Below are positions 8,286-12,405 of a stretch of 38,981 nucleotides of DNA, in pieces. How positions within the stretch are numbered: position 1 is the stretch's first letter; each line of letters begins with the position of its first letter. The DNA comes from an uncultured Bacteroidales bacterium (GTDB lineage Bacteria; Bacteroidota; Bacteroidia; Bacteroidales; UBA4417). The stretch covers positions 1-38,981 of the forward strand of contig CAIJPI010000013.1 in assembly GCA_903822525.1 (NCBI GenBank). Direction: 5' to 3'. The notes beneath the pieces are model-generated. The model was given only the letters and a program-made list of their open reading frames with translations, was not told the DNA's origin and ran no database searches. A program made the translations under genes and the position numbers.

Positions 8286-8759
8286 ATGCAATTCCCCGGT
8301 TATACTACTGGCTCTGTCGCGCTTCAGGAAGGGGAATGGCTTCTCTTCAAAATTCACAATCTCATTCAATTACAGGATGGAAACTGGTATTATGTTCTTC
8401 AGGATATAAATGGGATGAAACATTTCCTGACAGCTGAATATTACACGAATTATAATTTAAAGGTTGGTGAAGAGATAAGCTGTAAGATTGACAGGATAAA
8501 CTGTACCGGAAGAATTTTCCTCGAGCCGAAACATCCTTATTATACTGAGAATGAAATTTACACTTTCGACCTGCTAAATTATACAGAACAAGGAGATGAA
8601 ATCAGTCTGCTGGTGAAAGGTTTTGGGACTGAAAATGCGGAAGTAAGAGTTTTCGTTACACCAAAAATGGATTTTAGTACCCTGAAAAGTGTCAAATGCA
8701 TTGTCAAAAGCATTAAAAAAGGAGAAATTATACTTGAATTATATCCTTTTATTGTTTGA
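8286..8759 (+). CDS. Unrecognised 157-residue protein with OB/S1-like segments
   Basis: I do not recognise a named family. There is no signal peptide or membrane helix, so it is probably cytoplasmic. The sequence alternates short beta-prone stretches. Two segments resemble beta-barrel (OB or S1-like) edges: VGEEISCKIDRINCTGRIFLEP near residue 62 and KSVKCIVKSIKKGEIILEL near the C-terminus. This suggests a nucleic-acid or small-ligand binding fold, which is inference only. It lies between relA and the large non-coding RNA, with no visible terminator between it and the RNA promoter. Confidence 0.7.
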   Translation: MQFPGYTTGSVALQEGEWLLFKIHNLIQLQDGNWYYVLQDINGMKHFLTAEYYTNYNLKVGEEISCKIDRINCTGRIFLEPKHPYYTENEIYTFDLLNYTEQGDEISLLVKGFGTENAEVRVFVTPKMDFSTLKSVKCIVKSIKKGEIILELYPFIV

Positions 8760-8803
8760 TATATATTCTTAAATATTAATAATCAATCATTTACTTTTAA
8801 AAT

Positions 8804-8830
8804 GAGGTTATTAACAATTGTTCACAACTC
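8804..8830. promoter_or_regulatory. Imperfect dyad centred on AACAATTGTT
   Basis: A 10-bp perfect palindrome, AACAATTGTT (8813-8822), sits inside a wider imperfect dyad that begins GAG and ends CTC. It lies about 40 nt upstream of the predicted -33 element of the non-coding RNA, where an activator or repressor site would be reasonable. No regulator can be assigned. Confidence 0.35.
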
Positions 8831-8867
8831 ATGTGTAATCAATGTTGGGTTTTTCCCGGATAAACAC

Positions 8868-8899
8868 TTGACACAGGGGTGCAAAATGTTGTAATTTTA
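8868..8899 (+). promoter_or_regulatory. Promoter of the large non-coding RNA
   Basis: TTG at 8868-8870, a 21-nt spacer, then TAATTTTA at 8892-8899. This is one mismatch from the Bacteroidota consensus TAnnTTTG, with the same 21-nt spacing as the near-perfect clpC promoter in this window. Transcription would begin near 8905. Confidence 0.6.
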
Positions 8900-8943
8900 T
8901 TTCACCGGACGAGATCATGGTAACCGGCCCTGGAGAGGCTGCT

Positions 8944-8968
8944 GAACTTCTGAGAAGGAGGAAAGTTC
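8944..8968 (+). other. Hairpin with Shine-Dalgarno-like loop
   Basis: GAACTT (8944-8949) pairs perfectly with AAGTTC (8963-8968). The 13-nt loop between them contains AGAAGGAGG, complementary to the anti-Shine-Dalgarno end of 16S rRNA. No start codon follows at normal spacing. It lies near the 5' end of the large RNA. Confidence 0.5.
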
Positions 8969-9449
8969 TGATCCCAACGAAACTGATGTTTCTTTCTCGC
9001 AAGAGTTTTTTACAAAAGCTGGTTGAAAGCTGGAATGCACGAAAGAGTCAAAGGGCATGTGGCACCCTGTACCGATTGACCGCAAGGAATTGAAGTAGAG
9101 GCGCATCGAAAGATGCAAAAGGCAAAAGGATTGAGATAGCGAATTGGAAACAAAACGCAATTGAAACCAAATCTGCTGAAACCCGATCTGAAAAGACTGG
9201 CAAGTAAAAAAGAAAACACCTTAGCTGCAGTAAGTACCTGATGATACTCATCATGCAGGGATGAAACAAACAAAAGCCGCAAGGTAATTGGATGCGTAAT
9301 TCCCACGATCGCCGAAGCGCGGCACACGGCAGGAAAAGCAATTCTGGCAACAGAGCAGCCAACCGGGCCGAAGCCAGAGGAAGCCGGAAGCCGCAAGGCT
9401 GAAAGCCAGTCAGGCGAGCCGGGGTTCCCGGGGATGTAAAAATTCCCGA

Positions 9450-9486
9450 TACCTACAGAAGTTATCAAACTCACGGGTATGATAAC
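9450..9486 (+). other. Candidate H-type pseudoknot in the large RNA
   Basis: GTTATCA (9461-9467) and TGATAAC (9480-9486) form a perfect 7-bp stem with a 12-nt loop. Loop bases GGGTA (9475-9479) can pair with TACCT (9450-9454) just upstream, with one T-G wobble, giving crossing helices. Seen by eye; not tested by folding or covariation. Confidence 0.5.
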
Positions 9487-9755
9487 AACAAACGCTCCGA
9501 ATGCAGGAACCGACAACGCGTAAGCGTGGCCACAACATGAATTCCGAAAGGGACAATGTTTAAAGCCCGGTAACACTCTGAAAGTTCTTCCTCGTGAAGG
9601 ATACTGCTGAGTGAAACCAGTGCCGGAAAAAACAAAGCCTGGTGCTTGCACCTGCTTTGAACAACAACAGGGCAATTCTATATGTTTTGCCAATCTGTAA
9701 ATTCTGCGAAGCAAACGCCGGCCACAATCAACAGTTACGGCTGCTGAAAGTGAAG

Positions 9756-9795
9756 TAGGGAACTATCCGACAGGATGGTTCCCTATTGCTTTTTA
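9756..9795 (+). terminator. Strong intrinsic terminator of the large RNA
   Basis: A 13-bp stem (9756-9768 with 9773-9785, one T-G wobble) is capped by a GACA tetraloop and followed by TTGCTTTTTATT. It ends the structured region about 96 nt before the trkA start codon. Confidence 0.93.
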
Positions 9796-9832
9796 TTCGG
9801 ATTTCAATAAATTTTTAAAGTTATTTGATTGC

Positions 9833-9866
9833 TTGTGGGTTTTCAATCGTATTCGACGTAAATTTA
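9833..9866 (+). promoter_or_regulatory. Possible trkA-trkH promoter
   Basis: TTG at 9833-9835 and TAAATTTA at 9859-9866, with 23 nt between. This is one mismatch from TAnnTTTG and lies between the upstream terminator and the trkA ATG at 9892. If real, the potassium genes need not depend on readthrough of the RNA terminator. Confidence 0.4.
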
Positions 9867-9891
9867 CCGTCATTAAAAATACATTTATACT

Positions 9892-10587
9892 ATGGCGGGG
9901 AATAAATATGCTGTAATCGGCATCGGACAGTTTGGAAAAGCTATTGCAAAAGCTATTTCGGCAAAAGGTTACGAAGTAATGGCTATTGACAGCGACTCAG
10001 AAATAATTGACAGTATTGGTGATGATGTTGCCTATGCTGTTGCTCTCGATGCAACTGATAAGCGGGCATTACAGGGACAGGGCATCGAAGAATATGATGC
10101 CGTGGTTGTTGCTATAGGTTCCGACTTCGAACAACGCCTGCTTTGTGCTTCTGTTCTGCTTGACTTAAATGTAAAACGCATTATTACCCGGGCTAACGGA
10201 GAAGCGCAACGGATCATACTTGAAAAAATGGGTATCACCGAGGTACTTTCACCCGAAGAGGAAGTTGGTATTATCGTTGCCGAACGAATGCTAAACCCTA
10301 GCATTGTAAGTTACCTTCAACTCCCTGATAATCATCGTGTGGTTGAATTACTGAGTCCGAAAAACTGTATAAACAAAACATTCGGAGATATTGATTTACG
10401 CGACAAATACAAACTCAGTCTGATCACTGTTAAAGAAGAACTCAGGATAATTAAAGATGGGAAAGAAACCATTGAACATCATATTATTGGGGTTCCCGAT
10501 TCAAAGCAATCCCTGCAGGCAACTGACAGACTGGTAATTTTCGGGCACGTTCAGGATATTGACCGGTTTCTGGAAATCAATACCTAA
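9892..10587 (+). CDS. trkA: TrkA/KtrA potassium uptake regulatory subunit
   Basis: A 231-residue cytoplasmic gating subunit of a Trk/Ktr potassium channel. The N-terminal RCK_N domain shows a Rossmann nucleotide-binding loop, VIGIGQFGKAIA, followed by an acidic strand end (MAIDSD) and DATD; these bind NAD(H) or ATP/ADP in the family. The C-terminal RCK_C domain occupies about residues 140-231. It has a single RCK unit, so it resembles KtrA rather than the double-length enterobacterial TrkA. It ends 3 bp before trkH, an evident operon, and lies directly downstream of the large structured RNA. Confidence 0.92.
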   Translation: MAGNKYAVIGIGQFGKAIAKAISAKGYEVMAIDSDSEIIDSIGDDVAYAVALDATDKRALQGQGIEEYDAVVVAIGSDFEQRLLCASVLLDLNVKRIITRANGEAQRIILEKMGITEVLSPEEEVGIIVAERMLNPSIVSYLQLPDNHRVVELLSPKNCINKTFGDIDLRDKYKLSLITVKEELRIIKDGKETIEHHIIGVPDSKQSLQATDRLVIFGHVQDIDRFLEINT

Positions 10588-10590
10588 GGT

Positions 10591-12405
10591 ATGCTTAAAG
10601 ACAGGATTTTCCGGCTCAGGGAGTTTATCAACATCAGACTTTATGCTCACAGGTCATATGTTGTCAGGGCTTTGCACCTGGCAAGTATTATCGTATCCTT
10701 AGTTGCCATTACGGCTATTATATACCAGCATGGTTTCCCCCAGACACCTTATAACCTTCGTATAACAGAATCTATTATTGAGGTTAGTCTGATTTTTTAT
10801 GTACTAAAGTTTTTAACACGAATTTTCTACGATTTCCATCCTATTGATTTCATCAGGACAAACAAATTTGAGGGGATCCTTTTGTCATTGATTGCACTTG
10901 ATGAATTGGCGAGTTTATTCACCGGCACTCACCTTGTACAACAGTTTATGAGAGCAGTCGGGTTCCCTGGGATTCATACTTATTATAACCTATTTATCCA
11001 GTTTTACTTTTTCCTCATTATTGTTGTTGAACTTGGAAAAGCAGGAAGATTTATCGATTATATCCATATCGGGCCTTCCGGATTACTGGCTTTATCATTT
11101 GTATTCATTATTCTTGCAGGAGCAGGGCTGCTGTTGTTGCCCGAAATGACGGTTTCCGGCATTAGCCCTATAGATGCATTATTTACTTCAACCAGTGCAT
11201 GCTGCGTAACAGGGCTGATTGTGGTTGATACCGCATTTTGCTTTACGCTGAAAGGCAAAACGATTATTATGCTTTTAATTCAGGTCGGCGGGCTTAATAT
11301 CATATCTTTTGCAACTTTATTTGCTACATTTTACCGCAATTCAGCAGGAATCAGAATGCAGTCGCTGATCAAGGATATTGTTTCGGCTGATAAAATAAGC
11401 AATACCAGGGGATTGCTCCGAAAAATATTCCTATACAGTATTGTAATTGAATTATCAGGCGCTGCTTTACTATTTATTACATGGCCCAATGAGCTGATAT
11501 TTAAAGGAATAGGGGAGAAGATATACTTTTCGGTATTTCATTCGGTTTCAGCTTTCAATAATGCCGGGTTTGGTTTATTTACTGACAATTTGTACGACAT
11601 TACTGTTAGGCATGCCTATAATCTTCAGCTTGTTATAGCTGCACTTATTTCATTGGGAGGGATAGGATTCATTGTGCTGGAAGATGTATTTGGTTTAAAA
11701 AACATCTTACTCCGGCGTAAGGTTAAATGGAAAAGACTTCAGGCACATTCGCGCATTGCCCTGTATACTTCAGGAATATTGGTTTTATCGGGAGCGGTAG
11801 TATTTTACCTTGTTGAATTCAACCATTCGATTGAAGGATATGGGATTTATGGCAGTATAGTTTCATCTATATTTCAATCCGTGACCTGCCGAACTGCAGG
11901 ATTTAATTCGGTCGACTTTACCCACCTGGGCCAACCTGTTCTAATCTTCATGATGTTCCTTATGTTCATCGGGGCATCACCGGGCTCAACTGGAGGCGGT
12001 ATTAAAACAACAACTTTTTCGGTTATACTTCGTTCAGCTTTAAGTACAATCAGGGGACGAAAAAACGTAGAAATCGTAAAACATACTATTTCGGGTGATA
12101 CCATTAGCAAAGCTTTTTCGATAGCATTGTTTTCAATTTCGCTTATCTTTATTTCTACATTTATGTTATCGATTACCGAACCCGATAAGAGTTTTATCAG
12201 CCTCTTGTTCGAAGAAATATCAGCATTCGGCACAGTTGGTTTGTCAACCGGAATTACATCTTCCTTAAGCTTCGCAGGAAAAACTATAATCATTCTTACC
12301 ATGTACATTGGAAGGATAGGCACACTTACACTGGCTCTGGCTATAACAAAGCGAATAGTATATACAAAATACCGGTATTCGGAAATTAATGTACTGGTTG
12401 GCTGA
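10591..12405 (+). CDS. trkH: TrkH/KtrB-family potassium channel subunit
   Basis: The membrane pore subunit, moving K+ inward through four pseudo-repeats. The filter regions can be read in order: TSTSACCVTGL (199-209), SVSAFNNAGFG, SVTCRTAGFN and EISAFGTVGLSTG, each with the conserved Gly. At 604 residues it is longer than a typical KtrB (about 450). The extra 155 or so N-terminal residues include several hydrophobic helices (about 27-46, 60-80, 93-112 and 131-148) before the canonical first repeat, which starts near GPSGLLALSF. Start chosen at the ATG 3 bp after trkA. Cotranscribed with trkA. Confidence 0.92.
   Translation: MLKDRIFRLREFINIRLYAHRSYVVRALHLASIIVSLVAITAIIYQHGFPQTPYNLRITESIIEVSLIFYVLKFLTRIFYDFHPIDFIRTNKFEGILLSLIALDELASLFTGTHLVQQFMRAVGFPGIHTYYNLFIQFYFFLIIVVELGKAGRFIDYIHIGPSGLLALSFVFIILAGAGLLLLPEMTVSGISPIDALFTSTSACCVTGLIVVDTAFCFTLKGKTIIMLLIQVGGLNIISFATLFATFYRNSAGIRMQSLIKDIVSADKISNTRGLLRKIFLYSIVIELSGAALLFITWPNELIFKGIGEKIYFSVFHSVSAFNNAGFGLFTDNLYDITVRHAYNLQLVIAALISLGGIGFIVLEDVFGLKNILLRRKVKWKRLQAHSRIALYTSGILVLSGAVVFYLVEFNHSIEGYGIYGSIVSSIFQSVTCRTAGFNSVDFTHLGQPVLIFMMFLMFIGASPGSTGGGIKTTTFSVILRSALSTIRGRKNVEIVKHTISGDTISKAFSIALFSISLIFISTFMLSITEPDKSFISLLFEEISAFGTVGLSTGITSSLSFAGKTIIILTMYIGRIGTLTLALAITKRIVYTKYRYSEINVLVG

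Follow-up and report, generated by a model that had tools for sequence, protein, structure and literature searches.

Evidence for a structured RNA family across class Bacteroidia with an upstream DnaA-box-like array

RNA families that are old, widespread and conserved in sequence usually serve basic roles, and few new ones as large as the one described here appear. Among the closest described systems, OLE is a large chromosomal RNA, presumed to be a ribonucleoprotein scaffold, with a partner gene encoding OapA and a kink turn for OapC. 6S RNA has long flanking helices and is conserved in shape more than in sequence. The genes for ROOL and GOLLD reside in phages and prophages; in GOLLD the 3′ region is conserved while the rest varies, and many members exceed 800 nt (PMC12286853). 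The raiA motif (ModT), a stand-alone chromosomal structured RNA found by comparison in many species, occurs in Bacillota and other groups (PMC11706538).

We analysed a window of 38,981 nt from an uncultured Bacteroidales bacterium (contig CAIJPI010000013.1 of assembly GCA_903822525.1), in which a first-pass annotation had marked positions 8905–9795 as a large RNA recalling OLE, GOLLD and ROOL. That likeness holds for size and density of structure but not for kinship, since the family to which the RNA belongs is chromosomal, class-wide and mostly 230–650 nt long. Like GOLLD, it is large and of unknown function, with a conserved 3′ region and a variable rest; unlike GOLLD, which is phage- or prophage-borne and often lies near tRNA islands, it has a core that ties 5′ and 3′ ends together, members down to 230 nt and no viral copy of its 5′ pattern. 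ROOL is likewise large, ornate and of unknown function, but it is a phage- or prophage-borne cage-former with a different distribution. OLE shares the chromosomal setting, the size and the presumed scaffold role; however, it is found in Bacillota with its OapA and OapC partners, and no DnaA-like array has been described for it. The Rfam models of OLE, GOLLD and ROOL matched neither the window nor any of 37 relatives' loci. The raiA motif differs in host groups and core sequence, again with no Rfam match. With 6S RNA the family shares paired ends, an A/U-rich internal loop and a minimal size near 230 nt, whereas its near-invariant loop, short closing helix (P1), large extra arms and separate 3′ hairpin and terminator set it apart.

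Searches for known families bore out the earlier view that the RNA has no recognised relative in Rfam. Neither the window nor the 37 relatives' loci had a match in Rfam 15 at the gathering threshold, and the window yielded only chance matches at E ≤ 10, with E of 2.7 or worse. RNase P, tmRNA, SRP RNA and group I and II introns gave no Rfam or ARAGORN match in the window. The Rfam 6S model (RF00013) was silent in all 14 carrier genomes, which says little because the model fails equally on the control Bacteroides, for which experiments have demonstrated a 6S RNA and its product RNAs (PMC7366714). 6S-Flavo (RF01685) gave one sub-threshold match only, elsewhere in Draconibacterium orientale. In the searchable open literature, the coverage of which is partial, no description of the family was found by motif or keyword.

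Positions 8904–9794 almost certainly encode a large folded RNA (Table 1). The predicted start at 8903–8904 and the end of the T run at 9794 place its limits within 1–2 nt of those first proposed. The plus strand of 8905–9795 folded at −281 kcal/mol, whereas dinucleotide shuffles gave −242 ± 8 (z = −5.0, 0 of 20). The promoter-like sequence noted at first pass is of the sigma-ABfr type, the consensus of which is TTG followed by TAnnTTTG (PMC7366714). The terminator is also present, with a stem of 15 pairs (9754–9768/9773–9787, then TTTTT up to 9794) instead of the 13 bp first reported. GNRA hairpins occur as described, for example CTC-GCAA-GAG (8996–9005) and GCATC-GAAA-GATGC (9103–9116), and further ones are TCTG-GCAA-CAGA (9343–9354), GCC-GCAA-GGC (9390–9399) and ACGC-GTAA-GCGT (9516–9527); several show compensatory change among relatives. 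The T-poor composition was confirmed, at 17% T in 9010–9714.

Table 1. Positions of the predicted RNA gene and associated features in the window
Feature	Position	Strand	Basis
DnaA-box-like site 1 (TTATTAACA)	8808..8816	-	kept at about -94 in relatives
DnaA-box-like site 2 (TGTTCACAA), other palindrome half	8819..8827	+	peak at -84/-83 from RNA start, 108 loci
DnaA-box-like site 3 (TGTGTAAT, degenerate here)	8832..8839	+	peak at -71/-70; TGTGNATA in many relatives
DnaA-box-like site 4 (TGTTGGGT, degenerate here)	8843..8850	+	peak at -60 in relatives
-33 promoter element TTG	8868..8870	+	invariant in alignment A2, nearly so in A5
-7 promoter element TAATTTTA (relatives: TATnTTTG)	8892..8899	+	conserved in alignments of relatives
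Structured RNA gene, about 891 nt	8904..9794	+	fold stability, genus relatives, covariation
5′ motif ACCGGACGAGATCATGGT	8904..8921	+	alignments; family-wide P1 covariation
Multi-branched arm of variable middle	9036..9257	+	stem 9036-9040/9253-9257, inner helices e.g. 9183-9189/9194-9200
Second multi-branched arm	9503..9707	+	stem 9503-9508/9702-9707; helices 35-47 of genus covariation analysis
3′ motif GCCGGCCACAATCAACAG	9717..9734	+	alignments; model R2 match to window
Conserved 3′ hairpin, UACG loop (CAC...GTG)	9723..9752	+	helix 48 of genus covariation analysis; helix 2 of 3′-domain alignment, 14/14 pairs with double changes
Intrinsic terminator, 15-pair stem and T run	9754..9794	+	structure comparison, covariation

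As the first-pass annotation had claimed, protein coding does not account for the region: the sense frames are full of stops, relatives share no conserved reading frame, and conservation among them follows no codon-position pattern. The antisense frame at 9010–9714 (minus strand, 234 aa) was rejected as a gene, with stops in seven of seven relatives, indels that are not multiples of three and no codon-position bias. This frame is longer than any from 500 simple shuffles (0/500), yet it is broken in every relative; its length is due either to the T-poor composition or to chance.

Full-length relatives with 73–84% DNA identity were recovered by blastn in six other species of the genus; in a seventh (L008) blastn similarity was confined to the ends, although the gene is clearly the same. 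The genus structure obtained with RNAalifold has 237 pairs, with 91% of cells paired, a percentage that is biased because the structure was derived from seven of the eight sequences on which it was scored. The double changes are not explained in this way: covariation was pervasive, with 73 pairs carrying double changes compared with 25.8 ± 3.6 after shuffling and about 14–29 for slid structures. In the arm at 9036–9257, double changes were found in 4 of 5 outer pairs and in all 6 pairs of the inner helix 9183–9200. Such compensatory change in RNA helices means that selection acts on the RNA. Full-length relatives, covariation and the lack of an Rfam match thus all support the initial reading of a discrete, large structured RNA. 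In the window's genus, an invariant AAGCAA before the 3′ motif (9704–9717) is complementary to TTGCTT at the terminator base (9787–9792), a pairing that might form a switch between terminator and core.

The family extends well beyond the genus. R1, a covariance model covering the final 131 nt of the RNA, found matches in 17 genera of the order (23 of 393 genomes). Several features that played no part in the search recur in these matches: the 22-bp palindrome GTTATTAACAATTGTTAATAAC, a promoter of sigma-ABfr type, a 5′ motif AYCAAGTGAGCGATAAAAGG whose distance from the palindrome is fixed at 103–105 nt, and a hairpin-rich middle of very variable length followed by a 3′ motif AATAACAGTARCTTGGC, a hairpin and a terminator. 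A second model of the 3′ domain (R2) was built from 25 sequences, none from the window's genus, so that its match to 9710–9794 of the window (E = 2.9e-8) is an independent test of membership. R2 found the domain in 54 of 345 sampled genomes of class Bacteroidia (32 genera); among 395 genomes sampled across the phylum, matches were confined to the same class. Scanning 84,980 species genomes with an exact 21-nt 5′ pattern gave at least 118 genome loci. Among the matches listed, 92 of these loci (64/80 + 28/38) carried the 3′ domain at E < 1e-6, mostly in the expected orientation and 230–730 nt downstream of the 5′ motif; several of those without it end at contig edges, and it was absent from both Prevotella matches and from the clearly non-Bacteroidota chance loci, labelled cyanobacteria, Pantoea, Armatimonadetes, Holophagaceae and others. 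The family, which is absent from searchable catalogues, spans the whole class, and its named carriers include the culturable Draconibacterium, Algoriphagus, Cyclobacterium, Roseivirga and Marivirga, together with Tangfeifania, Mangrovibacterium, Mariniradius and Aquiflexum. We therefore hold with very high confidence, from sequence comparison, that an unlisted family of structured RNAs exists across class Bacteroidia. It is marked by the motifs GAGNGAUAAAAGG and AAUAACNGUARCYUG, and its members range from about 230 to 890 nt. On the same comparison, the 890-nt size is special to the window's genus, the window RNA being a diverged and enlarged member.

The family shares a core in which the two ends of the RNA are tied together. 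The 3′ domain, in an alignment of 99 sequences, had changes on both sides in 32 of 36 pairs, with 804 double-change cells (248 ± 17 after shuffling) and a score of 0.62 (0.22 shuffled, about 0.09 with partners slid), figures to be read knowing that fitting the alignment to the model gives the structure an advantage, and that the sequences came by three different routes. The end-tying helix forms between the 5′ motif AYCARGYGAGNGAUAAAAGG and the 3′ motif GYCANAAUAACNGUARCYUGR. When mutual information was calculated for every 5′ column against every 3′ column in 104 distinct RNAs (756 column pairs), ranks 1 and 2 both fell in helix P1 (5′-YCARGY/RCYUGR-3′), neighbours but two, with A-U/G-C at one of these pairs and C-G/U-A/G-C/A-U at the other; rank 4 fell in a second helix, P2 (GGC/GYC; C-G/U-A), assigned outside the window's genus. 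P1, which has six pairs family-wide, and P2 enclose an internal loop of 11 × 12 nt, GAGNGAUAAAA / ANAAUAACNGUA. Most of its positions are 95–100% conserved, so that some 23 unpaired nucleotides on the two facing sides hardly vary; conservation on the 5′ side is partly ascertainment, because many loci were fetched by the 5′ motif, whereas the 5′-pattern scan imposed no such selection on the 3′ side. Single-sequence folds of the shortest members gave the same closing stem.

Both motifs have diverged in the window's genus. P1 in the window would pair CCGG at 8905–8908 with CCGG at 9718–9721; being self-complementary, these strands cannot themselves covary, and CCGG 8905–8908 could alternatively belong to a local hairpin. 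By our reading, P1 would be extended, with changed pairs, in three relatives of the genus: CCGGAU/AUCCGG (L008), CCGGAU/AUCUGG (L010) and CCGGAC/GUUCGG (L012).

Just upstream of the window RNA, at 8807–8850, lies an array of DnaA-box-like sites that the first-pass annotation had left unremarked. Site 1 is half of a near-perfect palindrome GTTATTAACAATTGTTCACAAC (8807–8828), which occurs once in its own genome at up to one mismatch. Across 108 loci, the interval from −125 to −30 contained 101 forward copies of TGTKNATAA (expected 2.7 ± 1.5) and 56 reverse copies, compared with 11 and 7 in a control stretch further upstream. The sites are locked at −94 (reverse), −84, −71 and −60, at least one being present in 92 of the 108 loci, and the 13- and 11-nt steps between sites correspond to roughly one turn of the helix. 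Promoter, 5′ motif and array spacing are fixed in the window as in the family. The canonical DnaA box TGTGGATAA is perfect in only 7 of 108 loci; lineages L139 (three perfect copies), L109, L159 and L184 have canonical boxes. Domain IV of E. coli DnaA reads DHTTV. The corresponding residues are DHATV in the window's own genome, G315 and Draconibacterium sediminis, and DHSTV in Marivirga (L103, L104, L261, L256); as a guess, these changes may go with the shifted site TTATTAACA. The array suggests, but does not prove, a link between the RNA and the replication cycle. The only other triple TGTKNATA array in the window's own genome, TGTGCATA with 14-nt spacing at L106 (G000:C340:6382-6417), lies away from the RNA.

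The RNA region (8760–9890) lies between a conserved ORF of 157 aa (8286–8759), itself downstream of spoT, and trkA–trkH (9892–12405). No neighbouring gene was conserved family-wide when loci were compared across families, and there is thus no genetic pointer to a partner; a conserved neighbour as partner was rejected, since neighbours change between families. The RNA is most naturally read as acting in trans, with a promoter and a terminator of its own. The origin of replication was also rejected as the locus, with dnaA lying 99 kb from the RNA in G315 and 600 kb from it in Marivirga arenosa. By GC skew and gene orientation, the RNA lies about 55 kb (Marivirga) and about 65 kb (G315) from a terminus-type switch, compared with 0.6–1 Mb in Draconibacterium orientale and G719; because these distances differ between genomes, neither origin nor terminus is a constant position for it. 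A phage or plasmid origin was rejected: the 5′ pattern had no match in 2.9 million viral contigs, and phage and plasmid records gave no blastn match to the window RNA.

Comparison of relatives supports the predicted promoter, terminator, tied ends, invariant loop, variable middle, 3′ hairpin and four-site array. From these features we propose that 8904–9794 is a stand-alone non-coding RNA gene with a probably abundant product, which would act in trans as a ribonucleoprotein scaffold. The invariant internal loop would be the functional site, most likely binding a protein encoded elsewhere, while the variable arms might add bulk or further contacts. The array would be bound by DnaA, or by a protein of the same site preference, which would set transcription, and the amount of RNA would therefore follow the replication state of the cell. 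We consider the whole chain, from a chromosomal RNA that acts in trans as a scaffold, through a partner bound at its loop, to synthesis controlled by DnaA, about evenly balanced between right and wrong. A more tentative proposition is that this would be the first case of a large structured non-coding RNA controlled directly by DnaA, as part of a class-wide ribonucleoprotein of Bacteroidia that reports or regulates replication state. Against the chain weigh, in the window's genus, the deviation of TTATTAACA from the canonical box, the degeneracy of sites 3 and 4, the diverged 5′ and 3′ motifs and a P1 that cannot itself covary, and, across the family, a locus away from the origin, the lack of a shared neighbour gene and the partial ascertainment of 5′ conservation. 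The nearly invariant two-sided loop is an immediate target for a partner search, and through the array a direct connection of a non-coding RNA with the replication cycle can be put to the test.

Two alternatives concern the array. A regulator other than DnaA might read it, in which case the scaffold function would stay and the replication link would fall; the rarity of perfect canonical boxes fits this, and the core site, in the window's order the palindrome TTATTAACA/TGTTAATAA, would suit a dimeric regulator. Direct repeats at the observed spacings are nevertheless typical of DnaA arrays, perfect boxes do occur in four lineages, and D-H-x-T-V is retained in the carriers' DnaA, its third residue being A or S, which might explain the shifted site, making another regulator somewhat unlikely, if a serious contender. 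The DNA itself could instead be functional, as a DnaA-titrating site like datA or DARS with the transcript as by-product. The fixed array and the presence of roughly one palindrome per genome where it is present would agree with titration, but the compensatory changes show selection on the RNA, and a fixed distance between array and promoter is expected of a transcriptional operator; we regard titration as very improbable.

Other alternatives concern the RNA of the proposed scaffold. It might form an RNA-only homo-oligomer like ROOL, GOLLD or OLE, with no protein needed at the conserved core, as the size of the window member, its dense GNRA hairpins that could dock, and the GOLLD-like division into conserved 3′ region and variable remainder (PMC12286853) would allow; this is improbable given that ROOL and GOLLD are phage-borne (PMC12286853) while viral, phage and plasmid matches are lacking here, that members of 230–300 nt are small for a cage, and that no model of these families matched. 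A ribozyme, with the loop as catalytic core closed by P1 and P2, would explain why some 23 facing nucleotides resemble catalytic-core conservation, but no Rfam ribozyme model matched, there is no sign of a substrate strand or a processing pattern and the 3′ end is a plain terminator, so we give it a rather lower probability. The chance that a known family was missed is slight: Rfam lags behind publication and the literature search covered open-licence papers only, but Rfam 15 was silent on the window and the 37 relatives' loci, Bacteroidota go unmentioned in two genome-wide discovery papers, and motif and keyword searches were empty. That the RNA is a diverged 6S, sequestering RNA polymerase through an A/U-rich loop that mimics an open promoter, is as improbable as titration; paired ends, the 11 × 12 nt loop, minimal forms near 6S size and the near silence of both 6S models in carriers speak for it, while a nearly invariant loop and a P1 of only six pairs speak against it.

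Several loci have neighbours of interest. The 157-aa protein has no Pfam match and is encoded directly upstream of the RNA in all examined genus loci and in family f6; its AlphaFold model (pLDDT 83) bears a weak likeness to tandem OB folds (Teb1, HIN domains, S1 domain), and it might bind nucleic acids and be a candidate local partner. spoT and the OB-fold gene adjoin the RNA in two families. SRAP (SOS response-associated peptidase; one representative tested) lies beside the RNA in eight loci (L142, L151, L154, L180, L186, L189, L231, L237). In 10 of 114 loci (L055, L218, L037, L027, L014, L244, L217, L056, L185, L214), the gene for the primase DnaG (Toprim and DnaB-binding domain; one representative tested) lies in convergent orientation, about 330 nt downstream of where the RNA begins. 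The RNA occurs twice, its copies about 0.7–2 kb apart, in L194, L216 and L248 (Aquiflexum, Cognataquiflexum and a Chitinophagales MAG).
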